From: Thermoflexus hugenholtzii JAD2
Lineage (GTDB): Bacteria > Chloroflexota > Anaerolineae > Thermoflexales > Thermoflexaceae
Assembly: GCF_900187885.1 (NCBI RefSeq)
Contig: NZ_FYEK01000044.1
Coordinates: 1 to 64,000, forward strand
Length of the DNA stretch: 64,000 bases
Direction of reading: 5' to 3'
Numbering within the stretch: the stretch's first letter is position 1; each line of letters starts with the position of its first letter. The notes below the pieces were generated by a model. That model was not told the origin of the DNA, did not search any database, and worked only from the letters and a program-made list of their open reading frames with translations. This document shows positions 5,127 to 64,000 of this stretch, piece after piece. The position numbers and the translations under genes are program-made.

Positions 5127-6113
5127 ATGGAGCGGAAGCGAGCGCTGATCACCGGCATCACCGGACAGGATGGCTCTTACCTGGCGGAGTTCCTGCTGGA
5201 GAAAGGCTACGAGGTCATCGGGATGGTGCGTCGCACCAGCACCATCAATTTCGAGCGGATCCGGCACATCCAGGATCGGATCACGCTGGTGCAGGGGGAC
5301 CTGCTGGATCAGTCCTCCCTGATCGACATCCTGCGGGAACACCGACCCCACGAGGTCTACAACCTGGCCGCCCAATCCTTCGTCCCCACCTCCTTCAAGC
5401 AACCGGTCCTGACCGGGGAGTTCACCGCCCTGGGAGTGACCCGGCTCCTGGAGGCCATCCGCCTGGTGGATCCCACCATCCGCTTCTACCAGGCCTCCAG
5501 CAGTGAGATGTTCGGGAAGGTCCGGGAGGTCCCGCAGAACGAGAACACTCCCTTCCATCCCCGCAGCCCATATGGGGTGGCCAAGGTCTACGCCCACTGG
5601 ATCACAGTGAACTACCGGGAGAGCTACGGGATGTTCGCCGTGTCGGGGATCTGCTTCAACCATGAAAGCCCGCGACGGGGGCTGGAGTTCGTCACCCGCA
5701 AGATCACCTACACAGCAGCGAAGATCAAGCTGGGCCTGGCCCACGAGCTGCGCCTGGGGAACCTGGAGGCCCGCCGGGATTGGGGATATGCCCCGGATTA
5801 CGTGCGGGCGATGTGGCTGATGTTGCAACAGGACGAGCCAGAGGATTACGTCATCGCCACCGGGGAGACTCACTCCGTCCGCGAGTTCGTGGAGCTGGCC
5901 TTCGATTACCTCGGGCTGGATTGGAAGAAATACGTGGTGGTGGACCCTGCTCTCTATCGCCCTGCGGATGTGGACCTCCTGGTCGGGGATGCCACCAAAG
6001 CGCGGACCAAGTTGGGCTGGGCGCCCTCGGTGACCTTCGAGCAGCTGGTGAAGATTATGGTAGACGCCGACCTGGAGCTGGTAAAACAGGAATACGGGAT
6101 CCGGGAGGGCTGA
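5127..6113 (+). CDS. gmd: GDP-mannose 4,6-dehydratase
   Basis: A 328-residue protein with [23 protein letters not shown] at the start, the diagnostic [13 protein letters not shown] loop, YNLAAQSFV, a [11 protein letters not shown] catalytic Ser/Thr-Glu region and [12 protein letters not shown] holding the Tyr-Lys pair, then FNHESPRRG. All match GMD. It removes water from GDP-D-mannose to give GDP-4-keto-6-deoxymannose, the precursor of GDP-rhamnose or GDP-fucose. Length fits bacterial GMDs. Its stop codon is one base from the start of the next gene, so they are translationally close, and the rmd-like gene lies upstream. A GGAGGAAG ribosome site precedes the ATG. Confidence 0.95.
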
Positions 6114-6114
6114 G

Positions 6115-7539
6115 ATGACCGTCATCCGCTTCGGGACCGATGGCTGGCGCGGTCGCATCGCGGACGATTACACCTTCGCCAATGTCCGCCGGTGCGCCCA
6201 GGGTTTCGCCCGCTGGCTGCTGGATACCGGACAGGCGGAAGGCGGGGTGGTGATCGGCTACGATCACCGTTTCGCCTCCGAGCACTTCGCCGAGGCCTGT
6301 GCGGAGGTCCTGGCCGGCAATGGCATCCGGGTCTATCTCTGCGACCGGGCCGTCCCCACCCCGGTGATCAGCTACAGCGTGGTGGCCCGGGGCGCCGCAG
6401 GGGCCATCAACATCACCGCCAGCCACAACCCCCCCACCGACAACGGGTTCAAGGTCCGCAACCGCTTCGGCGGGGCCGTCGATCCCCAGGGCCTGCGGGA
6501 GATCGAGGCCCGCATCCCTCCGGATGAACAGGGGGTGAAACGCATGCCCCTGGCGGAGGCCCGGGCGAAAGGCCTGGTGGAGATCTTCGACCCGGCCCCG
6601 GCTTATCTCGCGCACCTCCAGCAGCTAGTAGACCTGGAAACCCTCCGCCAGGCGGATCTCACCGTTGTGGTGGATCCGATGTGGGGGAACGGGATCGGCT
6701 GGCTGCGGCGGCTGCTCTCCCCGGGGCGCATCCGGGTGGTGGAGATCCACGGCGAGCGCAACCCCATCTTCCCCCGGATGAAGCGCCCGGAGCCCATCCC
6801 GCCGAACCTGGACGACCTGCAGGAAAAGGTCCGGGAGCTGAAGGCCGACGCGGGGATCGCCACGGATGGCGACGCCGATCGCGTCGGACTGGTGGATGAG
6901 CATGGCGGGTTCGTTGATCCGCTTCGGGTCTACGGCCTCCTGGCCCTCTACCTCCTGGAGGTCCGCGGCCAGCGCGGCCCCATCGTCAAAACCCTCTCCA
7001 CTACCTCTATGCTGGAGAAACTCGGGGAGCGCTACGGGGTGCCCGTCTATGAGACCGGCGTGGGGTTCAAGTATGTGGCCCCGAAGATGCTGGAGACGGA
7101 CGCCCTTATCGGTGGGGAGGAAAGCGGAGGCTTCGCCTTCCGGGGGCACCTTCCCGAGCGGGATGGCATCCTGGCCGGCCTCTACCTGTTGGATTTTATG
7201 GTCCGGACCGGCAAACGCCCTTCGGAGCTGATCCGCTGGCTGTTCGAGCGGGTCGGCCCCCATTATTACTCCCGCATCGATGTGGAATTCCCACCGGAAC
7301 GCCGGGAGGAGACCCGAGCCCGCCTGGATCAGACACAACCGGATCGCTTGGCCGGTCTGCGGGTGGTCCGCATCGATCGCTCCGACGGCTACAAGTTCTA
7401 CCTGGAGGACGGCGGCTGGCTGCTGATCCGGTTCTCGGGAACGGAGCCCCTGCTGCGGATCTACACCGAGACCACCGTGCCGGAGCGGGTGGCTCAGCTG
7501 CTCGAAGAAGGCCGCCGTCTGGCCGGGCTGGAAGAGTAG
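6115..7539 (+). CDS. phosphoglucomutase/phosphomannomutase family protein
   Basis: A 474-residue phosphohexomutase. RFGTDGWRG opens the protein, the phosphoserine loop is [16 protein letters not shown], the metal loop is [13 protein letters not shown], the sugar-binding [10 protein letters not shown] and the C-terminal phosphate-binding [15 protein letters not shown] are all present. The enzyme interconverts sugar 1- and 6-phosphates. In this operon, mannose-1-phosphate supply for GDP-mannose is the natural role, but the family also includes glucose- and glucosamine-specific members, so specificity is inferred from context. The start lies one base after the gmd stop codon. Confidence 0.9.
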
Positions 7540-7546
7540 ACCGGTG

Positions 7547-8383
7547 ATGGAGCGGTCGATCCTCATCGATACCCATTGCCACCTGGACGACCCGGCCTTC
7601 GATCCGGATCGGGAGGAGGTGCTGGCCCGAGCTCGGATGGCGGGCGTGGAGATCCTCATCCTCCCCGGGGTGGAACCGGAAGGGATCCCGCGCGCCCTGG
7701 CGCTGGCCGAACGCCATCCAGGGCTTTACGTGGCGGTGGGGATTCATCCCCACGTGGCCTCGCAGTTTTCTTCCCAGCTCCTGGCCCAGCTCCGGAGCTG
7801 GGCGCGACATCCTCGAGTGGTGGCCATCGGGGAGATCGGCCTGGATTTCTATCGCGATCGCTCGCCTCGAGAGGCACAACGGGAAGCCTTCCGGGCCCAG
7901 CTGGAGCTGGCCGGCGAGCTGGGGCTGCCGGTGATCATCCACCAGCGGGAGGCCCGCGAGGCGGTGATGGAGGAGCTGGAGCGCTGGCTCGCCGCCCGCC
8001 CCGGGGCCCGAGGGGTCCTCCACGCCTTCTCCGGCGATCCCGCAATGGCGCGGATCGCCGTGAAATGGGGGTTCCTCCTGGGGATCGGGGGGCCGCTCAC
8101 CTATCCCCGGGCGGAAAGCCTGCGAGAGGCCGTGCGGGCGGTCGGCCTGGACGGCCTGGTGCTGGAGACGGACGCGCCCTATCTGCCCCCGCAACCCCAT
8201 CGGGGCCGTCGTAACGAGCCCGCTTACCTGCGGAACGTGGCGGAAGCCCTGGCCCAGCTGCTCGGGCTGCCGATGGAGCAGATCGCCCGACAAACCACCG
8301 CGAACGCTTGCCGGCTCTTCCGGCTTCCCCCACCGCAGGAAAGCGATCTCCCAGAGTCTCGCTGCGGAGGCGGAGATCCATAG
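7547..8383 (+). CDS. TatD family metal-dependent hydrolase
   Basis: About 278 residues. Metal ligands of the TatD fold are visible: DTHCHLDD near the N-terminus, GEIGLDFYRD (Glu), IIHQRE (His), LHAFSGD (His) and ETDAPYLPPQ (Asp). RRNEPAYLRNVAEALA is the usual C-terminal signature. TatD proteins are Mg-dependent 3'-5' DNA/RNA exonucleases acting in DNA repair or RNA quality control. An in-frame GTG at 7544 is an alternative start. The gene follows the mutase by a few bases. Confidence 0.92.
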   Translation: MERSILIDTHCHLDDPAFDPDREEVLARARMAGVEILILPGVEPEGIPRALALAERHPGLYVAVGIHPHVASQFSSQLLAQLRSWARHPRVVAIGEIGLDFYRDRSPREAQREAFRAQLELAGELGLPVIIHQREAREAVMEELERWLAARPGARGVLHAFSGDPAMARIAVKWGFLLGIGGPLTYPRAESLREAVRAVGLDGLVLETDAPYLPPQPHRGRRNEPAYLRNVAEALAQLLGLPMEQIARQTTANACRLFRLPPPQESDLPESRCGGGDP

Positions 8384-8465
8384 ATCATGGAAAGGCTCCA
8401 CGCCCGATGTAAAATGAGACGAGAAGCTTGTTCTTCGACGAACATTCTGAATCAGGTAGACGGGA

Positions 8466-9455
8466 ATGCCTCCGACCGCGCATTCGGTGCAGGCTCTGGT
8501 CCATATCCAGGAGTGGCTCCAGGGAGACCTGGAGCAGGTAGAGACCCGCATGCGGGCGATCCCCCTCACGTTTGAACCCCTGAAAACCGCGGTGGACCAT
8601 CTGCTGCGTGCGGGGGGCAAGCGCATCCGTCCCATGTTGGTTTTGCTGACCGGTCGGCTCTACCGGGAAGCGGACGAGGCGATGATCGCTCTGGCCGCCG
8701 CCGTGGAGATGCTGCACACCGCCACCCTGGTCCACGACGACCTGATCGATGGCTCCCTGCTCCGGCGGGGGATCCCAACCCTGAACGCCATCTGGACCCC
8801 GGCGGCAACGGTGTTGACGGGCGATTATCTGTTCGCCTACGCGGCCTCCCTGGCCGCGCAGACCGAGAACGTCCGCGTCATGGCCATCTTCGCACGCACG
8901 CTGATGACCATCTGCGAGGGGGAGCTGCGCCAGCAATTTGGAGACCGCGCCGCCATGCTGGATCGGGAGGATTATTTCCGACGGATCTATGCTAAGACGG
9001 CGGCGATGTTCGAGCTGGCCACCGAGGCGGCTGCCGTGCTGGCCCGGGCCCCTGAGCCCCAGGTGGAGGCCCTTCGGCGTTACGGGGTGGATCTGGGGAT
9101 GGCGTTCCAGATCATGGACGACATCCTGGACTTCACCGGTGAGGCCCAGGTCTTGGGCAAGCCGGTCGGCAACGATCTGCGCCAGGGCCTGATTACCCTC
9201 CCGGTGCTCTTCTATTTGGAGGAGCACCCCGGGGATCCCGTCATCGACCGCATCCTGGCCGGGAGCTCCGGGGATGAGGACCTCATCCGCGAGGCGGTTG
9301 AGCGGGTGCGGAACTCGAAGGCGATCGCCCAGGCCCGGGCGGAGGCGGAGGCGTTCATCCGTCGCAGCCAGAGTTACCTCGAGAACCTCCCGGAGGGTCC
9401 GGCCCGAGAAGCCCTGCGGTTCCTCGGCGAACTCGTCCTGCGTCGGGATCATTGA
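8466..9455 (+). CDS. polyprenyl (long-chain) diphosphate synthase
   Basis: A 329-residue trans-isoprenyl diphosphate synthase. Both aspartate-rich motifs are present: LVHDDLIDGS (first, DDxxD) and QIMDDILDF (second), together with GGKRIRPML and the KTAAMFELATEAAA helix and GKPVGNDLRQGLITLP. These enzymes condense isopentenyl diphosphate to C30-C50 products for menaquinone side chains or lipid carriers. The residues before the first motif are not bulky, which favours a long-chain product, but chain length cannot be fixed by reading. It sits between tatD and a GT2 gene. The upstream gap of 82 bases has no strong promoter. Confidence 0.9.
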   Translation: MPPTAHSVQALVHIQEWLQGDLEQVETRMRAIPLTFEPLKTAVDHLLRAGGKRIRPMLVLLTGRLYREADEAMIALAAAVEMLHTATLVHDDLIDGSLLRRGIPTLNAIWTPAATVLTGDYLFAYAASLAAQTENVRVMAIFARTLMTICEGELRQQFGDRAAMLDREDYFRRIYAKTAAMFELATEAAAVLARAPEPQVEALRRYGVDLGMAFQIMDDILDFTGEAQVLGKPVGNDLRQGLITLPVLFYLEEHPGDPVIDRILAGSSGDEDLIREAVERVRNSKAIAQARAEAEAFIRRSQSYLENLPEGPAREALRFLGELVLRRDH

Positions 9456-53655: not shown

Positions 53656-54765
53656 ATGCACATCGGGATCCCGAAAGAGCGCCGACCGGAGGAATACCGG
53701 GTGAGCCTCACCCCGGCAGGGGTGGAGATGCTGACCCAGGCCGGACATACGGTGTGGGTGGAGAGCGGGGCAGGCCTGGGAGCCGGCTTCACGGATGAGG
53801 ACTACCGCCGCGCGGGCGCCCAGATCGTCTACTCCGGGCCCGAGGTCTATGGACGGGCGGATCTGGTCGTGAAGGTGGCCCGGCCCACCCAGGAGGAGTT
53901 CGAGTGGCTTCGGGAGGGCCAGGCCCTGATGGGCTTCCTCCATCTCGCCGCCGCCCGACGAGACAAGATCGAGATCCTGCTCCAGCGGCGGATCACCGCC
54001 ATCGCCTACGAGACAGTGCAGGCCGACGACGGCACCCTCCCCATCCTGGCTCCGATCAGCGCCATCGCCGGGCGGATGGCCGCCCATGTCGCCGCCACCC
54101 TGCTTCAGAACGACCGGGGGGGCAAAGGGATCCTCCTGGGCGGTGCCCCGGGCGTCCCGCCCGCCGAGGTGGTGATCCTAGGGGCCGGCGTCGTGGGCTC
54201 CAACGCCGCCCGGGCCTTCGCCGGCATGGGAGCCAGCGTCTATGTGCTGGACAAAGACATCCGTCGGCTCCAGCGCCTCGAGGAGCTGTGCGGAAGCCAG
54301 GTCGTCACTATGGTCTCGCATCCCTACAACCTGCGTAAGGTCGTCCGCTTCGCCGATGTGCTGATCGGCGCCGTGCTGGTGCCCGGCGCCCGCACGCCCA
54401 TCCTGGTCACCCGGGAGATGGTCCGCTCTATGAAGCCTCGATCCCTGATCATGGACATCTCCATCGATCAGGGCGGGTGCGTCGAGACCAGCCGCCCCAC
54501 CACCCACCGCGACCCCACTTTCGTCGAGGAGGGGGTGATCCACTATGCGGTGCCCAACATGACCGGCGTGCTGGGGCGGACCGCCACACACGCGCTGACG
54601 AACGCTCTGTGGCCGTTCCTGGAGGAGATCGCCCGGGTGGGCCTGGAGGAGGCCCTGGATCGGGATCCAGCCCTGGCCCGTGGGGTGAACACCCGTGAGG
54701 GTCAGGTGACCCACCCGGAGCTGGCCCGTGTTCTGGAGATGGAGGCCTCGATCCGCCAGGGTTGA
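53656..54765 (+). CDS. ald: alanine dehydrogenase
   Basis: 369 residues. IGIPKERRPEEYRVSLTPAGVE, the nucleotide motif VVILGAGVVGSNAARAFAGMG, VLVPGARTPILVTREMVRSM and DISIDQGGCVETSRPTTH are family hallmarks, with the catalytic His in MGFLHLAA and Asp in DISIDQGG. It reversibly converts alanine to pyruvate, ammonia and NADH, feeding or draining the pyruvate pool used by the adjacent Por operon. A 231-base gap precedes it, so it may have its own promoter. Confidence 0.95.
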   Translation: MHIGIPKERRPEEYRVSLTPAGVEMLTQAGHTVWVESGAGLGAGFTDEDYRRAGAQIVYSGPEVYGRADLVVKVARPTQEEFEWLREGQALMGFLHLAAARRDKIEILLQRRITAIAYETVQADDGTLPILAPISAIAGRMAAHVAATLLQNDRGGKGILLGGAPGVPPAEVVILGAGVVGSNAARAFAGMGASVYVLDKDIRRLQRLEELCGSQVVTMVSHPYNLRKVVRFADVLIGAVLVPGARTPILVTREMVRSMKPRSLIMDISIDQGGCVETSRPTTHRDPTFVEEGVIHYAVPNMTGVLGRTATHALTNALWPFLEEIARVGLEEALDRDPALARGVNTREGQVTHPELARVLEMEASIRQG

Positions 54766-54786
54766 TCCTCGCCGAGGAGGCATCCG

Positions 54787-56106
54787 ATGTCCTGGATGGA
54801 ACTCTACCGCGAGAAGCTGATGACGCCGGAGGAAGCCGTCCGTCGCTACATCCGATCCGGGATGCGGGTGTTCCTCTCGGGGAACTGCGGGGTCCCTCAG
54901 CGCCTGTTAGCCGCCCTGGTGGAATACGCCCCTCAGCTGGAGAACGTGGAGATCGTGCAGGTCCTCACCGTGGGCCCCGCGGATTATGTGACCCCCGGCA
55001 TGGAGCGGCACATCCGCGTCAACACCCTCTTCATCAGCGACAACGTCCGCCGGGCCGTCCAGGAGGGCCGGGCCGATTTCACCCCCTGTTTCCTCTCCGA
55101 GATCCCCGGCCTGTTCCGCAGCGGCCGGCTCCCCCTGGACGTGGCCCTCATCCAGGTCTCGCCGCCGGATGAGCATGGGTTCTGCTCCTTTGGAGTGGAG
55201 GTGGGGATCACCAAGCCGGCGGCCCAGTCGGCGCGCGTGGTGATCGCGGAGGTCAATGAACACATGCCCCGCACCCTGGGCGACAGCTTCATCCACATCT
55301 CCCGGCTCACCGCCGTCGTCCCTGTCTCCTACCCTCTCCCCGAGGTCCACATGGCGGAGCAATCCGAGGTGGCCCGGCGCATCGCCGAGCACATCGCCGC
55401 CATGGTCCCGGACGGTGCCACGCTACAGACCGGCATCGGAGCCATCCCCGACGCCGTGCTCCGGGCGCTCACCAACCACAAGGACCTGGGGATCCACACG
55501 GAGCTGTTCTCCGACGGGATCATTGATCTGGTGGAGAAAGGGGTGATCACGGGGGAGCGGAAAACCCTGCACCCCGGGAAGATCGTGGCCGGCTTCATGT
55601 TGGGCACCCGCCGGCTCTACGAGTTCGTCCACGACAACCCGATCTTTGAGCTGCATCCCACCGATTACGTGAACGATCCCTTCATCATCGCTCAAAACGA
55701 ACGCATGGTGGCCATCAACTCGGCCATCGAGGTGGATCTCACCGGGCAGGTCTGCGCGGACAGCATCGGCCATCTCTTTTACAGCGGGGTGGGTGGGCAG
55801 CTGGATTTCATCTACGGCGCCTCCCGGTCCCGCGGGGGGCTGCCCATCATCGCCCTGCCCAGCACCGCCCGCCTGAAGGATGGGACGGTGATCAGCCGCA
55901 TCGTGCCCACCCTCAAACCCGGCGCCGGCGTCACCACCACCCGCAACCATGTCCGCTTCGTGGTCACCGAGTGGGGGGTGGCGGATCTCTACGGGAAGAC
56001 CATCCGCCAGCGGGCCCGGGCCCTGATCGAGATCGCCCATCCAGACTTCCGGGAGGAGCTGGAGCGCGCCGCCTACGAGCTGCGTTATCTGCGGGAGGAT
56101 CGATGA
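54787..56106 (+). CDS. acetyl-CoA hydrolase/CoA-transferase family protein
   Basis: 439 residues of the Cat1-type CoA-transferase family. SGNCGVPQRLLAALVEYA, QTGIGAIPDAVLRAL and the catalytic Glu in GIHTELFSDGIIDLVEKG are present, and the C-terminal VVTEWGVADLYGKT is typical. Likely reactions are acetate:succinyl-CoA or 4-hydroxybutyrate CoA transfer, which would let acetyl-CoA from Por be converted to acetate with energy conservation in the thioester. It starts 21 bases after ald and is probably in the same unit. Confidence 0.88.
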   Translation: MSWMELYREKLMTPEEAVRRYIRSGMRVFLSGNCGVPQRLLAALVEYAPQLENVEIVQVLTVGPADYVTPGMERHIRVNTLFISDNVRRAVQEGRADFTPCFLSEIPGLFRSGRLPLDVALIQVSPPDEHGFCSFGVEVGITKPAAQSARVVIAEVNEHMPRTLGDSFIHISRLTAVVPVSYPLPEVHMAEQSEVARRIAEHIAAMVPDGATLQTGIGAIPDAVLRALTNHKDLGIHTELFSDGIIDLVEKGVITGERKTLHPGKIVAGFMLGTRRLYEFVHDNPIFELHPTDYVNDPFIIAQNERMVAINSAIEVDLTGQVCADSIGHLFYSGVGGQLDFIYGASRSRGGLPIIALPSTARLKDGTVISRIVPTLKPGAGVTTTRNHVRFVVTEWGVADLYGKTIRQRARALIEIAHPDFREELERAAYELRYLREDR

Positions 56107-56136
56107 TCCGGCGGCGCGCTTCCTTCTTGAATCAGG

Positions 56137-57312
56137 ATGGAAGGCAAGATGAGCCAGATGTCCCGTGATGGAGCGCTCCCTCTGTTAAGGGGAGGCCCGG
56201 GGGATCTCCTGCGCGCCCTGGGGGAACGGGCGCTCCGGTTGCCTTTGTTTTACAAGATCCTGATCGCCAACACCCTCCTGGTCGCGGCCGGGGCCGTGAT
56301 CGGCACCACCCTGTCCTTCCGGGCAGGCCACCAGCTGTCGGGGGAGGCTTACTACCGCTGGCGCTACGCTTACATCCTGCTCTTCGCGACAGGAGGAACC
56401 GCGCTGAGCGCGCTGATCTACAGCCTGCTGGTGCGCTGGGCCCTCCGCCCTCTGGAGCAGCTCCAGGAGGCCGCGGAGGCGATCCGCCGGGGTCAGTTCA
56501 ACGTGCGTGTTCCCCCCCATCCCTTCCGCGACGCCCAGATGGAGCAGCTGGTGGAGACCTTCAACCAGATGGTGGAAACCATCGTTAGCAACAGCGAGCG
56601 CCTGCACTGGCTTTCCCAGCAGATCCTGCAGGCTCAGGAGGAGGAACGAGCGCGGATCGCGCGGGAACTGCACGATGAGGCCGCCCAGTGGCTGACCTCT
56701 CTGTTGATCCGCCAACGCTTGCTCCTCCGCAGCCTCCCTCCGGAGATGCGCCCGGAGGTGGAGGAGCTCCAGCGGATGACCACCGCCGCCCTGGAGCATC
56801 TCCGCCGGATCGCCATGGAGCTCCGCCCCGCCATCCTGGACGACCTGGGGCTGGTAGAAGCACTGCGATGGCAGGCGGAGGAGTTCCAGAAGCAGACAGG
56901 GCTCTCCCTCACCCTCCAGATCCAGGGGCGGATCGAGCGGCTGCCCCGCCAGGTGGAACTGGTTCTTTACCGGGTCGCCCAGGAAGCCCTGACCAACATC
57001 GCCCGGCACGCCCGGGCCACCCGGGTGGAGATCACATTAAACTGTTCAACGGAGCATCTGGAGCTTTTGATCGCAGATGACGGGGTCGGCTTCGACCCGG
57101 AGGCGGTCCGGCGGTCGCGCGCCCGCTCCCTCGGGCTGATCGGGATGGCCGAGCGTCTCGCCCTGATCGGGGGGACACTGGAGATCGATTCCGCCCCCGG
57201 CAAGGGCACGCGCATCCGCGCCCGGGTGCCTGCGGGTGGACCCCATTGTCTGGCTCGGGAGGTCTGGCATGATGAACGGAGGACGGAAGATCCGCATCCT
57301 GATCGCGGATGA
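56137..57312 (+). CDS. NarL/LiaS-type sensor histidine kinase
   Basis: 391 residues. Two membrane spans near residues 37-58 and 80-101 enclose a short outer loop of about 20 residues, so sensing is probably within the membrane. A HAMP region (RWALRPLEQLQEAAEAIRRG) and HisKA_3 helix EEERARIARELHDEAAQWL follow, with the phospho-His in ELHDE, then an HATPase with EALTNIARHARA and DDGVGFD. Its last 44 bases overlap the response-regulator gene. Two in-frame start codons exist (56137, ATG 12 bases later). Confidence 0.9.
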   Translation: MEGKMSQMSRDGALPLLRGGPGDLLRALGERALRLPLFYKILIANTLLVAAGAVIGTTLSFRAGHQLSGEAYYRWRYAYILLFATGGTALSALIYSLLVRWALRPLEQLQEAAEAIRRGQFNVRVPPHPFRDAQMEQLVETFNQMVETIVSNSERLHWLSQQILQAQEEERARIARELHDEAAQWLTSLLIRQRLLLRSLPPEMRPEVEELQRMTTAALEHLRRIAMELRPAILDDLGLVEALRWQAEEFQKQTGLSLTLQIQGRIERLPRQVELVLYRVAQEALTNIARHARATRVEITLNCSTEHLELLIADDGVGFDPEAVRRSRARSLGLIGMAERLALIGGTLEIDSAPGKGTRIRARVPAGGPHCLAREVWHDERRTEDPHPDRG

Positions 57313-57943
57313 CCACCCGGTGCTCCGCCGGGGTCTGCGGGCGCTGATCGAAGAAGAGCCGGACATGGAGGTAGTGGGGGAGGCTGGGAACGGCCTGGAG
57401 GCGGTGCAGCTGGCCGAGCGGCTCCGCCCGGATGTGGTCATCATGGACATCTCGATGCCGGAGCTGGACGGGCTGGAGGCAACCCGGCGCATCCGCGAAC
57501 GTTTCCCTTCCACCTATATACTGATCCTCACCGTCCATGCCCACGAACGCTATCTCTTCCCTGTCCTCAAGGCAGGAGCCTCCGGATACGTTCGCAAGAC
57601 CGCCGCGGACGAGGAGCTGATCGAGGCCATCCGGGTGGTGGCCCGGGGCGACGTCTTTCTTTACCCCTCCGCCACCCGCATGCTCCTGGACGATTACCTC
57701 GCCCAGGTTCGGGCCGGGCGTGAGCAGGATTCCTACGAGAGCCTCAGCGAGCGGGAGCGGGAGATCCTCCGCCTGCTGGCGGAGGGTCACACCAACGCGG
57801 AGATCGCTCAGAAATTGAACCTCAGCGTGAAAACGGTGGAGACTTACCGAACGCGCATCATGGAGAAGCTGCATCTGCGCACCCGGGCCGAGCTGGTGCG
57901 TTATGCCCTCCGCAAAGGCCTGATCTCCGAAGAGACCGCTTGA
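57269..57943 (+). CDS. LuxR/NarL-family response regulator
   Basis: 224 residues from ATG at 57269 behind GGGAGG, overlapping the kinase end. The receiver (~1-125) has ILIADDHPVLRRGLRALIE, the phospho-Asp in VVIMDISMPELDG, and the Lys in VRKTAADEELIEA. A LuxR helix-turn-helix (LSEREREILRLLAEGHTNAEI ... LSVKTVETYRTRIMEKL) is at the C-terminus. It is the transcription factor of the pair, and the adjacent sulfur or rSAM genes are plausible targets. Confidence 0.93.
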   Translation: MMNGGRKIRILIADDHPVLRRGLRALIEEEPDMEVVGEAGNGLEAVQLAERLRPDVVIMDISMPELDGLEATRRIRERFPSTYILILTVHAHERYLFPVLKAGASGYVRKTAADEELIEAIRVVARGDVFLYPSATRMLLDDYLAQVRAGREQDSYESLSEREREILRLLAEGHTNAEIAQKLNLSVKTVETYRTRIMEKLHLRTRAELVRYALRKGLISEETA

Positions 57944-57961
57944 TTCGAAAGGGGGACCCCC

Positions 57962-59140
57962 TTGGCCCGTTTGAGGCTTGAAGCGGACGGAACGCTGCGC
58001 CTTCCCCCGGAGATCCTTCGTTCATACGGCGTGGAGCCGGGGACGGAAGGCGTGCTGGAGCAAACAGAGGATGGATGGGCTTTCCACGTCATCCGCCCCG
58101 ATCTGCGCCGCGTTTATGTGGAGGTCACCGCCCTCTGTAATCTCAACTGCGCCATCTGCATCCGCCAGGTCTGGCGGGATCGCCCCGGATCCATGCCCTG
58201 GGAGGTTTTCGAGGAGCTCATCCGACAGCTGCGGGCCTTCCCCGAACTGCGCCGGATCACGTTCGGCGGGTTCGGGGAGCCCCTCGTCCATCCCCGCATC
58301 GCGGACATGGTGGCCCTGGCGCGAACCCTGGGTGTGGGGATCACCCTGACCACTAACGGCCTGCTTTTGGATGGGGCGGTGGCGGAGGCGCTGTCGGAAG
58401 CCGGGCTGGACACGGTGGTCGTGTCCATCGACACCGCCCACCTTCAGGCCTATCGGCAGGCCGGCCTGGTCGACGGCCTGGATCGGGTCATCGATAACAT
58501 CCGCGGGCTGCAGGCGCTGGCGCGGGCGCACCGCCGCCTGGTCCCCCGCATCGGGCTGGAGTTCGTGCTCACCCGGGACAGCCTCCCGGAGCTCCCTCAG
58601 GTCCCCCGCCTGGCCCAGGCCCTGGGGGCCTCGTTCGTCCTCATCACCCATCTGCTCCCCCACACGCCGGAACAAGCCCAAGCTATCCTGTATGACCGCG
58701 GAGAGCCCCTCCCCGCCCTTCCCGGCTGGCCGGTCCCCGGCGGAGACTGGCTGGTCTGGGGTCTCGCCCGGATGCCGCGCTCCCGATGGGGCGCGATGCG
58801 GCGCTGTCGCTTTGTCGAAGAACGCTCCACCGTGATCCGATGGGACGGCGGGGTGAGCCCCTGCTACGCGTTGATGCATTCATACCCCTATTACATTTAT
58901 GGACGTCGTAAAGAGGTCACCGCTTACATCTTGGGCTTCATCCAGCAACGCCCCCTTATCGAGATTTGGAGCTCGGAGGAATATGTGCGGTTTCGGGCGA
59001 AAGTGCGGGCCTTCCGCTTCCCCTCATGCGTGGATTGCGGGATGGCCTGCTACTACGCTGCCCACAACGAGGACTGCTGGGGAAACACCCCTTCCTGCGC
59101 CGATTGCCTCTGGGCTCAGGATATCATCCGCTGCCCATGA
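57962..59140 (+). CDS. radical SAM/SPASM-type protein, tungsten oxidoreductase maturase-like
   Basis: 392 residues from a TTG start with AAAGGGGG before it. The first ~45 residues resemble an AbrB/SpoVT-like strand (RLEADGTLRLPPEILRSYGV). The radical SAM cluster is C59-NLN-C63-AI-C66 in ALCNLNCAICIRQV, followed by TFGGFGEPLVHP and TLTTNGLLLD. The C-terminus carries many Cys (CRFVEERS, PSCVDCGMACYY, NEDCWGNTPSCADCLWAQ) as in SPASM domains. The ending NEDCWGN.PSC.DCLWA matches the radical SAM maturases found beside tungsten-dependent oxidoreductases. No such oxidoreductase gene is adjacent. Substrate unknown. Confidence 0.8.
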   Translation: MARLRLEADGTLRLPPEILRSYGVEPGTEGVLEQTEDGWAFHVIRPDLRRVYVEVTALCNLNCAICIRQVWRDRPGSMPWEVFEELIRQLRAFPELRRITFGGFGEPLVHPRIADMVALARTLGVGITLTTNGLLLDGAVAEALSEAGLDTVVVSIDTAHLQAYRQAGLVDGLDRVIDNIRGLQALARAHRRLVPRIGLEFVLTRDSLPELPQVPRLAQALGASFVLITHLLPHTPEQAQAILYDRGEPLPALPGWPVPGGDWLVWGLARMPRSRWGAMRRCRFVEERSTVIRWDGGVSPCYALMHSYPYYIYGRRKEVTAYILGFIQQRPLIEIWSSEEYVRFRAKVRAFRFPSCVDCGMACYYAAHNEDCWGNTPSCADCLWAQDIIRCP

Positions 59141-59149
59141 AGAAAAAGC

Positions 59150-59176
59150 GGGACAGACCCTCGGAGGGTCTGTCCC
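59150..59176 (-). terminator. intrinsic terminator of the rhodanese/Phs-like operon
   Basis: A 13-bp perfect stem (arms 59150-59162 and 59164-59176, one-base loop, in practice a shorter stem with a larger loop) is followed on the minus strand by GCTTTTTCTTC. It lies 21 bases beyond the rhodanese stop codon. On the plus strand it lacks a T-run but could still slow the convergent transcript. Confidence 0.85.
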
Positions 59177-59196
59177 ACCGGCGGTCCTCGTCGGAC

Positions 59197-60114
59197 TCAC
59201 TGGGCTTTCTCCAAAGGCTCCCCAGCCTTCTGCCAGCCGAGGATGGCGGGGGTGAAGTTACGCACGTTGGTGTAGCCCAGCAGCTGCAACGCCGCCGTGG
59301 CCATCCCCGCCCGATGCCCCGTCCGACAATAGACCACCACCGGCTTATCCTTCGGCAGCTTGTCCAGATTCTTCGCCAGCGTCCGAATCGGGATGTTCAC
59401 CGCCCCAGGGATGTGCCCCTCCGCATACTCATTCGGCTCCCGCACGTCCACCAGCACCACGTTCCCCGCCGCCAGCATGTCCTTCAACGCATCCACCGCC
59501 CCCACCGTGTAATACTTGTCCGGAATCCCACTCAAAAACCGATCCACTACCGCGAGGAGCTCCGGATCCACTTGGGGCTGTCCGACGGAGCGCGCTTCCA
59601 CCGGCTCGGTGCTGAGCGGCTCCCCGGCGTCCTTCCAGCCGAGGATGGCGGGGGTGAAGTTACGCACGTTGGTGTAGCCCAGCAGCTGCAGCGCCGCCGT
59701 GGCCATCCCCGCCCGATGCCCCGTCCGACAATAGACCACCACCGGCTTGTCCTTCGGCAGCTTGTCCAGATTCTTCGCCAGCGTCCGAATCGGGATGTTC
59801 ACCGCCCCAGGGATGTGCCCCTCCGCATACTCATTCGGCTCCCGCACATCCACCAGCACCACGTTCCCCGCTGCCAGCATGTCCTTCAACGCATCCACCG
59901 TCCCCACCGTGTAATACTTGTCCGGAATCCCACTCAAAAACCGATCCACCACCGCCTTCAGGTCGAGGGCCGCTTTGGTGGGCGTCGGCGGGATCGGAGT
60001 GGGCGCCACCGTCGGCGTGGGAGGGGCTACGGTGGGCGTCGGAGCAACCGCAGGCCCGCAGGCCGCCAGCGTTAGAGCAAAGATGGTGAGAAGGATCCAC
60101 AACGTCCGCTTCAT
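59197..60114 (-). CDS. lipoprotein with two near-identical rhodanese domains
   Basis: 305 residues. A signal peptide ends in the lipobox LTLAAC, so the mature protein is anchored outside the membrane. A Pro/Thr linker follows, then two rhodanese domains, each with VVLVDVREPNEYAEGHIPGA and the active-site loop VVYCRTGHRAG (Cys). The two differ by about one residue over ~107. Rhodaneses transfer sulfane sulfur from thiosulfate or polysulfide. It is the last gene of the operon with the molybdopterin oxidoreductase, 34 bases downstream of the cytochrome b gene, and could deliver or remove sulfane sulfur there. ATG at 60114. Confidence 0.93.
   Translation of the reverse strand: MKRTLWILLTIFALTLAACGPAVAPTPTVAPPTPTVAPTPIPPTPTKAALDLKAVVDRFLSGIPDKYYTVGTVDALKDMLAAGNVVLVDVREPNEYAEGHIPGAVNIPIRTLAKNLDKLPKDKPVVVYCRTGHRAGMATAALQLLGYTNVRNFTPAILGWKDAGEPLSTEPVEARSVGQPQVDPELLAVVDRFLSGIPDKYYTVGAVDALKDMLAAGNVVLVDVREPNEYAEGHIPGAVNIPIRTLAKNLDKLPKDKPVVVYCRTGHRAGMATAALQLLGYTNVRNFTPAILGWQKAGEPLEKAQ
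59233..59553 (-). repeat. tandem internal repeat, C-terminal rhodanese domain copy
   Basis: About 321 bases repeated at 59635-59955 (offset 402 bases, 134 codons). I count about six differences, all transitions and most silent, so roughly 98% identity. This points to a very recent duplication or ongoing gene conversion. Confidence 0.9.
59635..59955 (-). repeat. tandem internal repeat, N-terminal rhodanese domain copy
   Basis: Partner of 59233-59553. Both copies start at the same codon phase, so the duplication kept the frame. The spacer of 81 bases encodes the linker between domains. Confidence 0.9.
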
Positions 60115-60148
60115 GGTTGCCTCCTGAGACTCAGGGTTTCATGCAGGC

Positions 60149-60865
60149 TTATCCCACTGCTTCCTCCTCAGCTCGGGCGCCGGGAACCCGGCGAGGCTCT
60201 GGGATCTCCTCCTGCACTTCGATCACATAGGGAGGCTCCTGGGGGATGGAGGCCAGCCACATGGCATGCTCCATCCGAGCGTATTCCTCGCTGACGTAGC
60301 CAGTGGTCATCGCCGGCAGGGCATCGTAAACGAAAGTGAAGTAGATGTGACCTACGGTGAGGATGGCCATCACAGCCATCGACACATCGTGAACGAGCGT
60401 TGCGGCGAGCAGGCCGATGGGCCCCAGGGAGCCCTTGCCCAGCCACAGGGCCAGGCCGGAGCCGGAGATAGCGAAGTAGGCAATGATGGTGAGGGCATGA
60501 TGGATCTTCTGGCCCGCGTTGATCCGCCCCTGCGGAGGCAGATGCGACGTCCGACCCAGGAAATAGCCCGGGAAACCTTTCAGCCATTCCAGATCCTCTC
60601 GGGTGTAGGTGAAGGAATCCCGAACCAGATCCCGAAGCCCCCGGAAGTCCAGAAGGGCATATAGGACGGGGGTGAGGAGGAAGATCACCGCCGCCACCCG
60701 GTGCAGCAGGCGGGAGAGGCCACCGGCCGCGAGGAAGGAGAGGGGTGGCCAGATCAGGGCCAGACCGGTGATGAGGAGAACGAAGAAGGCCCCCGCGTGG
60801 AGCCAGTGGACCACCCGCTGGCCCGGACGATAGCGCAGCACCCACCGAACTGTCTGCTTGGCCAT
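60149..60865 (-). CDS. cytochrome b subunit, FdnI/PhsC-type
   Basis: 238 residues with four or five membrane spans. RYRPGQRVVHWLHAGAFFVLLITG, LSRLLHRVAAVIFLLTP, GQKIHHALTIIAYF and DVSMAVMAILTVGHIYF contain the paired His residues that hold two b haems in formate dehydrogenase and thiosulfate reductase cytochrome b subunits. It would exchange electrons with the quinone pool. It starts three bases after the upstream Fe-S gene, so the three subunits are cotranslated. Confidence 0.9.
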   Translation of the reverse strand: MAKQTVRWVLRYRPGQRVVHWLHAGAFFVLLITGLALIWPPLSFLAAGGLSRLLHRVAAVIFLLTPVLYALLDFRGLRDLVRDSFTYTREDLEWLKGFPGYFLGRTSHLPPQGRINAGQKIHHALTIIAYFAISGSGLALWLGKGSLGPIGLLAATLVHDVSMAVMAILTVGHIYFTFVYDALPAMTTGYVSEEYARMEHAMWLASIPQEPPYVIEVQEEIPEPRRVPGARAEEEAVG

Positions 60866-60868
60866 GGT

Positions 60869-61603
60869 TCACTCCCCATGGTTTTGAGAGTTCCGCTTTT
60901 CCTCTAAGTGACGCCGCCGGGCGATGAAGAAGGCGATCCCGCTGGTGAGGGCGCTCAACGCGAGGGCGCCCAGACTCAAGGGCTGAACCCCACCCTTCCA
61001 GATGGCCAGGGGCGGGATCTGCGGCTGCGCCGGCAGGCCCAGCGTCTCCGGCGGTGCCGGAAGCACCATGATGACCCCCAGACCGCCCATCTGGGTCTCT
61101 CCATAGATCTGAGCCTCGGGGTAGCGATCCTTCAGAGCGGCCACCCGCGCCTGGGCCTCCGCCAGGATCTCCTCCCGGGTTCCGCACTGCAGGGCCCCCG
61201 CCGGGCAAGTTCGGACGCACCACGGCTCCTCGCCCCTCTGAACCAGATCCAGACACGAAGCGCATTTGGAGACGCGTCCGTCCACCAGGCGCGGCACCTG
61301 ATACGGGCAAACCTCGACGCAATAGCCACACCCGCTGCATCGGCCGAAATCCACCAGCGTGAAACCATCACGCTTGTAGAGGGCGCCGGTCGGACAGACC
61401 TGAACGCACGCCGCCTCCGCACAGTGGAAGCAACGATGCGGGACGAAGGCGCCCTGCAGCTCGGGAAAGCGGCCCCACACCACCTCCCGGATCTCCACCC
61501 ATCGCTCTCCTGGGGCCAGCTCCCGGCCGGCCTTGCAAGCGATCACACATGCTTGGCAACCCAGACACCGACTCAGGTCGATCAGCATCGCCAGCCGGGC
61601 CAC
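60869..61603 (-). CDS. four-cluster ferredoxin subunit with C-terminal membrane anchor
   Basis: 244 residues. Four Cys groups occur: CLGCQACVIACK, CFHCAEAACVQVCP, CSGCGYCVEVCP and CASCLDLVQRG with CVRTCP, the order seen in FdnH/PsrB/PhsB-type electron-transfer subunits. A hydrophobic C-terminal segment (SLGALALSALTSGIAFFIA) with a basic end anchors it. It links the catalytic subunit to the cytochrome b. It sits one base before the molybdopterin gene stop. Confidence 0.93.
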   Translation of the reverse strand: MARLAMLIDLSRCLGCQACVIACKAGRELAPGERWVEIREVVWGRFPELQGAFVPHRCFHCAEAACVQVCPTGALYKRDGFTLVDFGRCSGCGYCVEVCPYQVPRLVDGRVSKCASCLDLVQRGEEPWCVRTCPAGALQCGTREEILAEAQARVAALKDRYPEAQIYGETQMGGLGVIMVLPAPPETLGLPAQPQIPPLAIWKGGVQPLSLGALALSALTSGIAFFIARRRHLEEKRNSQNHGE

Positions 61604-61604
61604 T

Positions 61605-63881
61605 TCACACCTCCCGGATCAGGCGCACAAAATTCACCCGCATCCCCGCCCCGCCCGAGATCGGATCCAGACGATACCGGGTGATGAGCAGGTTGTCGCT
61701 CGCCCCCCGTCCCTCCGCCCGGCTCAACCGGGAACCCCGATGGCCGAAGCCGTGAACCAGATAGACGGCATCCTTGCGGATACGCGGGGTCGCCCGCACC
61801 CGCACCGGACCACTGCGGACGCCGTCCTGGTTCTCCAGGAGGACACGGTCGCCGTTCTTCAGGCCCAGCGCGGCAGCCATCTCATCGTTGACCCACACCT
61901 CGTTCTCCGGATAAACCTCCGCCAGCCAGGGGTTGTTCTGGGTCTTGCCGAAAGTGTGGAGCGGGTGCCGCCCATACAGCAGGCGGAAGTATCCCGGCGG
62001 CGGCTCCTCCACCGGCTCGTAAACAGGGAGCGGATCGAAACCCGCCCGGGCCAGGGCCTCCGAGTAGATCTCGATCTTGCCGCTGGGGGTGGGGAACGGC
62101 GTCTCCCCCTCCCCGTAGTCCTCCAGGTAAGGCTTGCCGGGCCATGTGAAGACCCCGCCCGCTTCCCGCAGCCGGTCCAGGGAGAGGCCCACGGACATCA
62201 GACGGGTGTTCAGGTATTCCTCGATGCTGGACCACTGAAAGTAATCGGCCAGACCCAGCCGCAGCCCCAGCTCCCGGGCGATCCACCACCCCGGACGGGT
62301 GTCGGGCAGGGGCTCGACTGCCGGCTCCCGCAAGGCGATGTAGGGTATGCGGTGAGAGGCTACCCACAGCTCGTCGTAACGCTCCAGGAACGTCGCCTCC
62401 GGCAGGACGATGTCCGCCCAGGCCAGGTGCTCCTGGGGGAGCACATCAATGGCCAGAACGAACTCCAGGCGCTTCAGGGCTTCGATGGTGCGGGGTACAT
62501 TGGGAATCGAGTGGAACAGGTTGACCCCGTAGACGACTAGGCCGCGGATCGGATAGGGCTGGCCAGTGATCATCGGCTCGATGAGCTCCTGGATGACCAC
62601 GGGGCCGGTGGCGAACTTGCTCCCCACCCCATCCGCGCGGGGTGGATGCCCTGGCGTGTCCGGGATCCGGATGCCCACCGCCGCCGCGCCGCACCCTCCC
62701 GCCGCCACCTCCACCGGGAAAGGTGGATGCGGATAGGGATCCAGGGCCGGCGCCCGCGGGAGGTAGAGGCCGCCCCGTCGCCCCACGTTGCCCAGCAACA
62801 CGTTCAGGATGAAGAGCGCGCGCATGCGCTGGGTGTCATTCCCATACCAGACCACGTGGCGCCCGGGCGGGATCACCACCTGAGGCCGGTGGGCCGCCAT
62901 CTCCCGGGCGACCTCCCGGATCACCTCCGCCGGGATCTCGGTGATCGGGGCCGCCCACTCCGGGGTGAAGGGGCGGATATGCTCCGCCAAGCGCTCAAAA
63001 CCAACCGTGTATTTCTCGATGTATTCACGATCGTAAAGCCCCTCGGTGATCAAGACGTTCATCCAGGCCAGAAGAAGGGCCGTGTCCGTGCCGGGCTTGA
63101 TGGGCAACCAGCGGTGCGCCTTCATCGCCGCGGTGGAATAGCGGGGATCCACCACCACGAGCTTCGCCCCCTGTGCCAGGGCCCGGGCGAAGTCCTGCAT
63201 CACCGTGTTGTGGGCGTTCTCCCCGATGTGATTGCCGATGAGGACGATGTAGCGGGTGTTCTCCCAGTCCACCGGCTCGTGACCGCCTATCCCCCGCCCG
63301 AAGGTGATCTGAGCGGCAACCTCGCGGGGGGTCAGGCAGAGGCCGGTGGCCGGCTTGCCAACGTTGGGGCTGCCGAAAGCCAGGGGCAAATAGTCCCCGA
63401 ACCAGAAATCTCCGGTGGTGTGGGCGAACCACGCCACCGACTCCGGCCCATATTGATCCCGGAGGCGAGCCAGCGCTTCCGCCGCTCGATCCAGCGCTTC
63501 CTCCCAGCTCGCCTCCCGGAACGACCAGGTCCCCCGCTCCCCCGTGCGGATCAGCGGCTTGCGCAGACGGTCCGGATCGTAAAGATGGGCTACAGCCGCC
63601 TGACCCCGGCCGCACAGACGGCCCCGGCTCTTCGGGTCCTTCGGGTTGCCCTCCACCTTCACGACCCGGCCGTTCACGGTATAGACCAGCATGCCGCAGC
63701 GCCACATGCACATATCGCAGTAGTTGTAAGTGATCCGCACCTCATCCGGGCGATACCAAGGCCAGCGCGCCCCACGGGTTCGCAGGAAGGCGAGCACAGG
63801 CTCCCCCAGCTGGGAGAGGCCCGTCCACATCCCCGCAAGAGCGCCCCCGCGCCGCAGGAATTCCCGACGGGTCAGCTTCAT
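61605..63881 (-). CDS. Tat-exported molybdopterin oxidoreductase, Psr/Phs-like
   Basis: 758 residues. A twin-arginine signal (KLTRREFLRRGG) precedes the [4Fe-4S] ligands C55, C58, C62 and C90 (CDMCMWRCGM ... GRLCGRGQ). C182 in ATGLCLTPREV is the likely Mo/W ligand, which fits polysulfide or thiosulfate reductase catalytic subunits better than a selenocysteine formate dehydrogenase. IGNHIGENAHN and ADIVLPEATFLERYDELW are family motifs. With a Fe-S and a cytochrome b subunit it forms a PsrABC/PhsABC-type complex facing the periplasm. Formate or arsenate activity is an alternative that only assay can settle. Confidence 0.9.
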   Translation of the reverse strand: MKLTRREFLRRGGALAGMWTGLSQLGEPVLAFLRTRGARWPWYRPDEVRITYNYCDMCMWRCGMLVYTVNGRVVKVEGNPKDPKSRGRLCGRGQAAVAHLYDPDRLRKPLIRTGERGTWSFREASWEEALDRAAEALARLRDQYGPESVAWFAHTTGDFWFGDYLPLAFGSPNVGKPATGLCLTPREVAAQITFGRGIGGHEPVDWENTRYIVLIGNHIGENAHNTVMQDFARALAQGAKLVVVDPRYSTAAMKAHRWLPIKPGTDTALLLAWMNVLITEGLYDREYIEKYTVGFERLAEHIRPFTPEWAAPITEIPAEVIREVAREMAAHRPQVVIPPGRHVVWYGNDTQRMRALFILNVLLGNVGRRGGLYLPRAPALDPYPHPPFPVEVAAGGCGAAAVGIRIPDTPGHPPRADGVGSKFATGPVVIQELIEPMITGQPYPIRGLVVYGVNLFHSIPNVPRTIEALKRLEFVLAIDVLPQEHLAWADIVLPEATFLERYDELWVASHRIPYIALREPAVEPLPDTRPGWWIARELGLRLGLADYFQWSSIEEYLNTRLMSVGLSLDRLREAGGVFTWPGKPYLEDYGEGETPFPTPSGKIEIYSEALARAGFDPLPVYEPVEEPPPGYFRLLYGRHPLHTFGKTQNNPWLAEVYPENEVWVNDEMAAALGLKNGDRVLLENQDGVRSGPVRVRATPRIRKDAVYLVHGFGHRGSRLSRAEGRGASDNLLITRYRLDPISGGAGMRVNFVRLIREV

Positions 63882-63911
63882 CGAAATCCTCCTCCAGCGG
63901 ACTTCAAACCC

Positions 63912-64000
63912 TCAAGGGCCAATGGGGCTTGCGACAGACGAAGCAGAGACCTCCCCTTCCCCGGTTTCAGCCTCCTGGTCGAAGGCCACCGGCAGCAAGC
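63912..64000 (-). CDS. C-terminal end of an unidentified protein (partial)
   Basis: Reading in from the right edge, the minus strand has an open frame of about 29 codons ending at TGA (63912-63914): a Glu/Ser-rich tail LLPVAFDQEAETGEGEVSAS. It ends 31 bases before the molybdopterin oxidoreductase start, so it may be the preceding gene of the operon. Too little is visible to name it, and chance openness cannot be excluded. Confidence 0.4.
   Translation of the reverse strand, partial: LLPVAFDQEAETGEGEVSASSVASPIGP

Follow-up and report, generated by a model that had tools for sequence, protein, structure and literature searches.

A TIGR04317 radical SAM maturase of Thermoflexus with an AbrB-like head and a probable partner in an unlinked aldehyde oxidoreductase cassette

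Described systems and the maturase of the window

In the radical SAM superfamily, cleavage of SAM yields a carbon radical. In Thermococcus kodakarensis, the tk1064-tk1065-tk1066 genes, for a radical SAM protein, a MoaD-type ubiquitin-like protein (Ubl) and a tungsten aldehyde oxidoreductase (AOR), lie side by side, and it was suggested by the authors of that work that the radical SAM enzyme might join in the maturation of the tungsten cofactor (PMC11323500, in the part of the paper considered here). In scattered archaea and bacteria, Iyer et al. (2006) described genes of the MoaD type that lie strictly next to those for AORs, and they proposed that the AOR-MoaD cluster is probably mobile and serves the tungsten cofactor; MoaA is an occasional neighbour in these clusters, and the term "radical SAM" is absent from the portion of the text considered (PMC1779556). 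Among the curated protein families, TIGR04317 bears the NCBIfam name "tungsten cofactor oxidoreductase radical SAM maturase", and no mention of it was found in the open-licence PMC literature. The part considered of the Thermoflexus genome paper (PMC8129789) does not mention aldehyde, tungsten or radical SAM, and that of a paper on a tungsten formate dehydrogenase (PMC13197769) does not mention radical SAM.

The stretch of DNA analysed here (the window; 64,000 nucleotides of Thermoflexus hugenholtzii JAD2) codes for a protein of the TIGR04317 type. The gene and its surroundings comprise the following features:

56137..57312, plus strand: sensor histidine kinase (HAMP, HisKA_3), upstream (Pfam)
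57236..57943, plus strand: response regulator with a LuxR-type HTH, upstream of the maturase (Pfam)
57962..59140, plus strand: TIGR04317 radical SAM/SPASM maturase, 392 aa, TTG start (ORF list, Pfam, NCBIfam)
57962..58096, plus strand: predicted hairpin domain at the N-terminus, AbrB/MazE-like and not covered by the TIGR04317 model, residues 1-45 (alignments, Pfam, structural model)
58121..58510, plus strand: radical SAM core, residues 54-183, with C59, C63 and C66 (Pfam, alignment)
58805..59038, plus strand: SPASM domain, residues 282-359 (Pfam, alignment)
59027..59134, plus strand: Cys-rich C-terminus, C356 to C391, seven cysteines (alignment)
59147..59179, minus strand: terminator-like hairpin (15 pairs) in the gap that separates the maturase from the convergent molybdenum (Mo) operon (terminator scan)
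59197..63881, minus strand: convergent operon for a rhodanese protein, a cytochrome b, an Fe-S subunit and a PhsA-like molybdopterin subunit (Pfam, NCBIfam)

The maturase reading frame is intact, with 392 codons from the TTG start, and its relatives in loci L072-L075 align from the same start. Residues 47-392 match TIGR04317 over positions 2-349 of the 349 in the model, at 381.4 bits against a cut-off of 380, which is a narrow margin; all 60 aligned relatives match the same model at E <= 1e-40. The two Pfam domains are well supported (Radical_SAM, E 2.9e-18; SPASM, E 1.3e-12), and the source genome holds a single strong TIGR04317 match, two other proteins scoring 46 and 35 bits against the window protein. 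On this profile match, the window protein is assigned to TIGR04317 as its member from Thermoflexus, Chloroflexota. Cysteines 59, 63 and 66 (CX3CX2C) are conserved across the 60 aligned sequences, as are nine further cysteines at positions 282, 301, 356, 359, 363, 372, 379, 382 and 391, three of the twelve columns having one gap each. The earlier note, made from the sequence alone, had described a radical SAM maturase-like protein with a Cys-rich C-terminus and had proposed a profile search; the family match and the conserved cysteines confirm that description. Seven cysteines are known for SPASM domains, and the nine conserved ones in the C-terminal part (58805-59134) are two more than this; there may be an additional cluster or metal site.

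The AlphaFold2 model of the whole protein, built with the 60 sequences, has a pLDDT of 91. Among its best structural matches are PqqE (6c8v), BlsE (7vob), BtrN, ChlB (9gm3), SkfB (6efn) and anSME (4k39), with Z from 20.7 to 21.4, and these matches span from about residues 29-47 to the C-terminus. The SPASM enzymes among them, PqqE, BlsE, SkfB, ChlB and anSME, share the fold of residues ~43-391 of the maturase, but at ~20% identity and with different substrates. The likeness to TIGR04317 itself extends over the whole radical SAM/SPASM part, whereas the head lies outside the family model, which starts at residue 47, and the AOR partner is unlinked here.

The earlier note had also seen an AbrB-type strand in the first 45 residues. 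In the window protein, the Pfam match of the head to PF04014 (MazE_antitoxin) is weak and below the cut-off (E 0.026, 14.9 bits, cut-off 24.7); the same profile appears at E <= 1 in 13 of 18 family members, the window protein included (best E 1.7e-9), and at E <= 0.1 in 14 of the 54 maturases of a second set. Modelled alone (pLDDT 84, pTM 0.53), the head piece resembles MazE 2mru (Z 6.3, rmsd 1.4, 47 aligned), SpoVT 2w1t (Z 6.2, rmsd 4.0, 55 aligned) and AbrB 1z0r (Z 5.8, rmsd 2.4, 49 aligned), and all eight chains with Z >= 5 belong to the AbrB/MazE/SpoVT fold class, the scores being modest. Foldseek gave no E-value below 0.06 for the head model, and the VIA-align table for the whole model, in which residues before 39 are barely covered, contains no AbrB-type entry. 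The head recurs among the aligned relatives and is common in the family, and the fusion is not peculiar to the window protein. In L153-L155 the head is shortened, and it cannot be recognised in L164, L192, L205 and L226 (labelled Methanomassiliicoccales, Halobacteroidaceae, Syntrophomonadaceae and Clostridia in their records); the catalytic part is retained in all of these. Residues 1-45 are taken as a predicted AbrB/MazE-like N-terminus, which is a trait of the family. In the open-licence PMC literature, no paper was found that combines "radical SAM", "AbrB" and "maturase", or "radical SAM" and "AbrB-like domain", and a description of such a head was not found there.

A second group of AbrB-headed radical SAM proteins, ~32-38% identical to the window protein, was seen in L104, L105, L106 and L146, where it lies within ~1.1 kb of AORs of other types. 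In two further loci with this group (L144 and L145) the stretch covered contains no AOR, the contig of L145 being 3.5 kb long.

The probable AOR4 partner and its linkage in relatives

As the earlier note had remarked, no tungsten oxidoreductase is adjacent to the maturase. Contig C44, which carries it, contains no AOR, and the four AORs of the source genome are on other contigs, AOR1-3 on C27 and AOR4 on C3:

G000:C3:132224-134005, minus strand: AOR4, with AFOR_N and AFOR_C domains

Both AOR4 domains pass the Pfam cut-offs (PF02730, AFOR_N, 224.6 bits; PF01314, AFOR_C, 260.7 bits), and the nearest solved relative is an aldehyde:ferredoxin oxidoreductase (9mqx). AOR4 is taken as a tungstopterin aldehyde:ferredoxin oxidoreductase-type enzyme, putative in both metal and substrate.

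The co-occurrence of the two genes, a survey of which had been proposed in the earlier note, was assessed in a class sample of 199 genomes using the following definitions: (i) The maturase was counted in 34 genomes, 32 of them over the TIGR04317 cut-off together with G102 (379.1 bits) and G013 (364.7 bits), and the next best scores, 327 bits and below, were treated as other subfamilies. (ii) An AOR4-type gene was called at an identity of at least 57%, partial hits included, and is present in 57 of the genomes. The AOR4-type gene occurs in 31 of the 34 maturase genomes versus 26 of the 165 others (Fisher p 2.4e-17, with kinship not corrected); three genomes have the maturase without AOR4 (G012, G013 and G141), and 139 have neither gene. 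The maturase is thus absent from 26 of the 57 AOR4 genomes, and its absence is scattered over the AOR4 tree, where the "absent" label changes 14 times and a minimum of 11 changes are forced.

Some of the 34 maturase neighbourhoods are on short contigs; AOR4 is found within 1 kb of the maturase in 20 of the 34 and is unlinked in the assembly in 11. A further set, made up of 80 related loci whose genomes are named, overlaps the class sample; it includes 51 loci with AOR4 at no more than 1 kb (50 on the same strand), two with AOR4 within 2 kb and 27 without it at these distances. Besides the genome of one linked locus (L205), the genomes of 20 of these 27 unlinked loci were searched, at least five of which are also in the class sample, and 14 have an AOR4-type gene (identity of at least 55%) elsewhere; in the other six, there was no AOR4 match in three and matches of 36, 37 and 48% in the rest. 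L153, whose maturase has the highest identity (67%) of those outside the genus, belongs to a genome in which AOR4 had no match. What the earlier note had looked for as counter-evidence, a tungsten aldehyde oxidoreductase elsewhere in the genome that always accompanies this protein in relatives, is therefore present in AOR4 as far as the frequent co-occurrence goes, but the word "always" does not hold.

The distances among maturases and among AOR4 proteins agree, with a Mantel r of 0.91 for 20 unlinked pairs and 0.88 for 23 linked pairs. RpoB served as the species-tree control; of the 43 pairs, 30 genomes were used, and 29 remained after one without a match (G204). Given RpoB, the partial Mantel r is 0.74 for all pairs (p 1e-4), 0.83 for the unlinked pairs (p 1e-4, 16 pairs) and 0.68 for the linked pairs (p 0.003, 13 pairs). 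The pairing of the maturase with AOR4 persists where the genes lie apart. The Thermoflexus AOR4 is nearest to the AOR4 of G201 (83%) and of G200 (75%), the latter a Candidatus Nitrosymbiomonas record of the Armatimonadota, and the maturases of these two genomes (64%), like those of G059, G139 and G048, belong to the closest ones from outside the genus; by RpoB, five genomes of the same class are nearer to Thermoflexus than G201 and G200. The unlinked maturase of the G201 record (L155, ~5842-9158) was seen by eye to follow ArsR-type regulator-, permease- and thioredoxin-like genes.

Among 133 aligned AOR rows (66 from linked loci, 11 from unlinked ones, 21 without the maturase, 31 of other AORs, three outgroup and one second copy), no AOR4 residue is fixed between the maturase-linked and maturase-absent rows. 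Twelve columns differ in frequency between these two groups, and many columns separate AOR4 from the other AORs. No AOR4 residue tracks the maturase, and therefore no modification site can be named.

Ubiquitin-like proteins and losses within Thermoflexus

In many relatives, AOR4 is part of a cassette that comprises AOR4, the maturase, a Ubl with a diglycine end and a second, diglycine-less Ubl, the maturase being located inside; the Thermoflexus maturase is outside the cassette, next to the unrelated Mo operon. In the class sample, each of the 20 linked loci has both Ubl types within 4 kb of AOR4, and the tail of the diglycine-less Ubl is of the SMWPFQYRHG type in 17 and of the FPDDMQLLYKWYF type in three. 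A diglycine-less call was made in 13 of 20 unlinked loci (one of these, L131, matching weakly and on the opposite strand), and a reading frame for this protein is found in 12 of 21 maturase-less AOR4 loci, including the truncated copies of G175 and several with the same tail; all of these Ubl counts are rough, since ends such as AVGGG and VLAGG escape the diglycine pattern and several loci stop at contig ends. The idea that the diglycine-less Ubl is generally lost along with the maturase was considered and rejected on the count for the maturase-less loci.

The two kinds of Ubl were noted at L071:9156-10184 (minus strand) and in the AOR4 loci. The diglycine Ubl is of the MoaD/ThiS type and ends in FPP(I/V)(A/G)GG. 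The diglycine-less Ubl has a strongly conserved C-terminal tail, the Thermoflexus versions of which are FPQNMTMPHIRLFAPRA and FPRNMGMLYC. The cassette resembles the tk1064-tk1065-tk1066 genes in its content of radical SAM, Ubl and AOR genes, a comparison by gene description. In the part considered of the account of the AOR-MoaD clusters (PMC1779556), no Ubl was found that lacks the diglycine and carries a tail of the SMWPFQYRHG type.

Among nine Thermoflexus genomes, the maturase is present in five (G000, G010, G102, G122 and G141), the Mo subunit in six (the same five and G078) and AOR4 in six (G000, G010, G102, G122, G046 and G175); maturase and AOR4 are found together in four. G141 is 76% complete, and no AOR was seen in it. 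In G175, which has lost the maturase, two of the three AOR4-linked Ubl genes are decayed, both of them diglycine-less, and the third, the diglycine Ubl gene, is intact. Of nine genes compared, AOR4 shows the steepest increase in dN/dS on the G175 branch, 10.6-fold versus 0.5-4.4 for the others; the ratio is raised in seven of the eight control genes on this branch, and only the relative excess of AOR4 was used. The dN/dS table had 12 rows, of which three antisense ORFs were removed, and ORFs with a pairwise ratio > 0.2 or poor coverage were excluded. G046 is also without the maturase, and its AOR4 and three Ubl genes are intact. A dependence of the AOR4 cassette on the maturase is plausible, not strict, and G175 represents one event.

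We consider it probable from these sequence comparisons that the maturase serves AOR4, encoded on another contig, or the MoaD/ThiS-type Ubl proteins encoded with AOR4. The family match, the co-occurrence, the linkage in relatives, the agreement of distances in unlinked pairs, the nearness of the AOR4 of G201 and G200 and the decay in G175 argue for this reading; the many AOR4 genomes without the maturase, the intact cassette of G046, the L153 genome and the five others with no AOR4 match or a low one, the lack of a separating AOR4 residue and the closer tracking of the Mo block within Thermoflexus argue against it.

It is unlikely that the maturase acts on the diglycine-less Ubl and not on the oxidoreductase. 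Here the radical-modified tail would build or load the tungsten cofactor, and recognition would fall to the AbrB hairpin. This proposal draws on the presence of this Ubl in all 20 linked cassettes and on G175, which lost the maturase and in which the diglycine-less Ubl genes decayed and the diglycine one did not, and it is weakened by the reading frames seen in 12 of 21 maturase-less AOR4 loci.

Other targets, mechanism and significance

The two-component pair before the maturase and the molybdopterin operon on the other strand, both pointed out in the earlier note, are as described, and the operon is convergent with the maturase. Only 18 bases separate the end of the regulator from the start of the maturase, and the two may possibly be co-transcribed. 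The terminator scan that gave the hairpin between maturase and operon found two sites overall versus 1.9 in shuffles; a promoter scan of positions 56000-60300 found none, and Rfam gave no match in positions 54000-64000. The rhodanese protein of the operon (59197-60114, minus strand) has, by eye, a lipoprotein-like signal, and it has two near-identical rhodanese domains; such a protein beside a PhsA-like enzyme suggests extracytoplasmic sulfur chemistry.

The earlier note had proposed that the maturase modifies its oxidoreductase neighbour. A role on the PhsA-like molybdopterin subunit or a companion subunit now appears unlikely, even though the maturase tracks the Mo block more closely than AOR4 within Thermoflexus, where the kinase and regulator make up a single block with the maturase and the Mo operon: all five maturase genomes have the Mo subunit and three of the other four are without it, and in G141 the maturase-Mo block is on a different contig from the CoA-transferase gene that flanks the block in the window. 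However, in the loci fetched from outside Thermoflexus no relative of the Mo subunit was found close to the maturase, the proximity having been seen in this genus alone; the maturase and the operon are on opposite strands with the hairpin between them, and a single deletion of linked DNA could account for their joint absence. G078 has the Mo subunit without the maturase or regulator in its assembly, a weak point, as the contig ends inside the rhodanese gene.

Traces of the block were seen in two of these genomes. In G175, eroded kinase and acyl-CoA synthetase remnants (L258, C408, ~7974-9143) mark the site at which the kinase-regulator-maturase-Mo block was lost, and in G046 51 residues of the Mo subunit are left. 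The CoA-transferase gene of G141 directly adjoins a diacylglycerol-kinase-like gene (L261, C119), the maturase-Mo block being located at L075 on C170.

A role for the maturase on one or more of AOR1-3 and not on AOR4 is very unlikely. These three enzymes are encoded in the same genome, and the related AbrB-headed group lies near other AOR types in L104, L105, L106 and L146; in the fetched TIGR04317 loci, however, the gene beside the maturase is of the AOR4 type and not of the AOR1-3 type, and the sole AOR3-like neighbour, 1.3 kb from the maturase of L154, is in a genome that also has AOR4 at 75%. That the head binds DNA and the protein is a regulator or autoregulator, besides or instead of an enzyme, is highly improbable: its best structural matches are the DNA-binding domains of AbrB, MazE and SpoVT, but the head is shortened or unrecognisable in seven records that keep the catalytic part, and all radical SAM cysteines are conserved.

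Under the preferred reading, with AOR4 or its Ubl proteins as the partner, the AbrB-like hairpin would dock on the partner or dimerise the maturase. A [4Fe-4S] cluster on C59/C63/C66 would cleave SAM, the nine C-terminal cysteines would hold auxiliary Fe-S clusters, and the 5'-deoxyadenosyl radical would modify a residue or cofactor of the partner.

In the part of the literature considered, the role of a radical SAM protein beside tungsten AORs is a suggestion only (PMC11323500). The Thermoflexus maturase belongs to an already known family. The data give the maturase a defined partner set, in a pairing that endures with the genes apart, and they point to a head domain left out by the family model. 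Two natural maturase-minus relatives, G175 and G046, differ in the fate of the partner genes. A recognition element of the winged-helix fold is known from peptide-modifying radical SAM enzymes, and the AbrB-like hairpin would represent a recognition element of a different fold.
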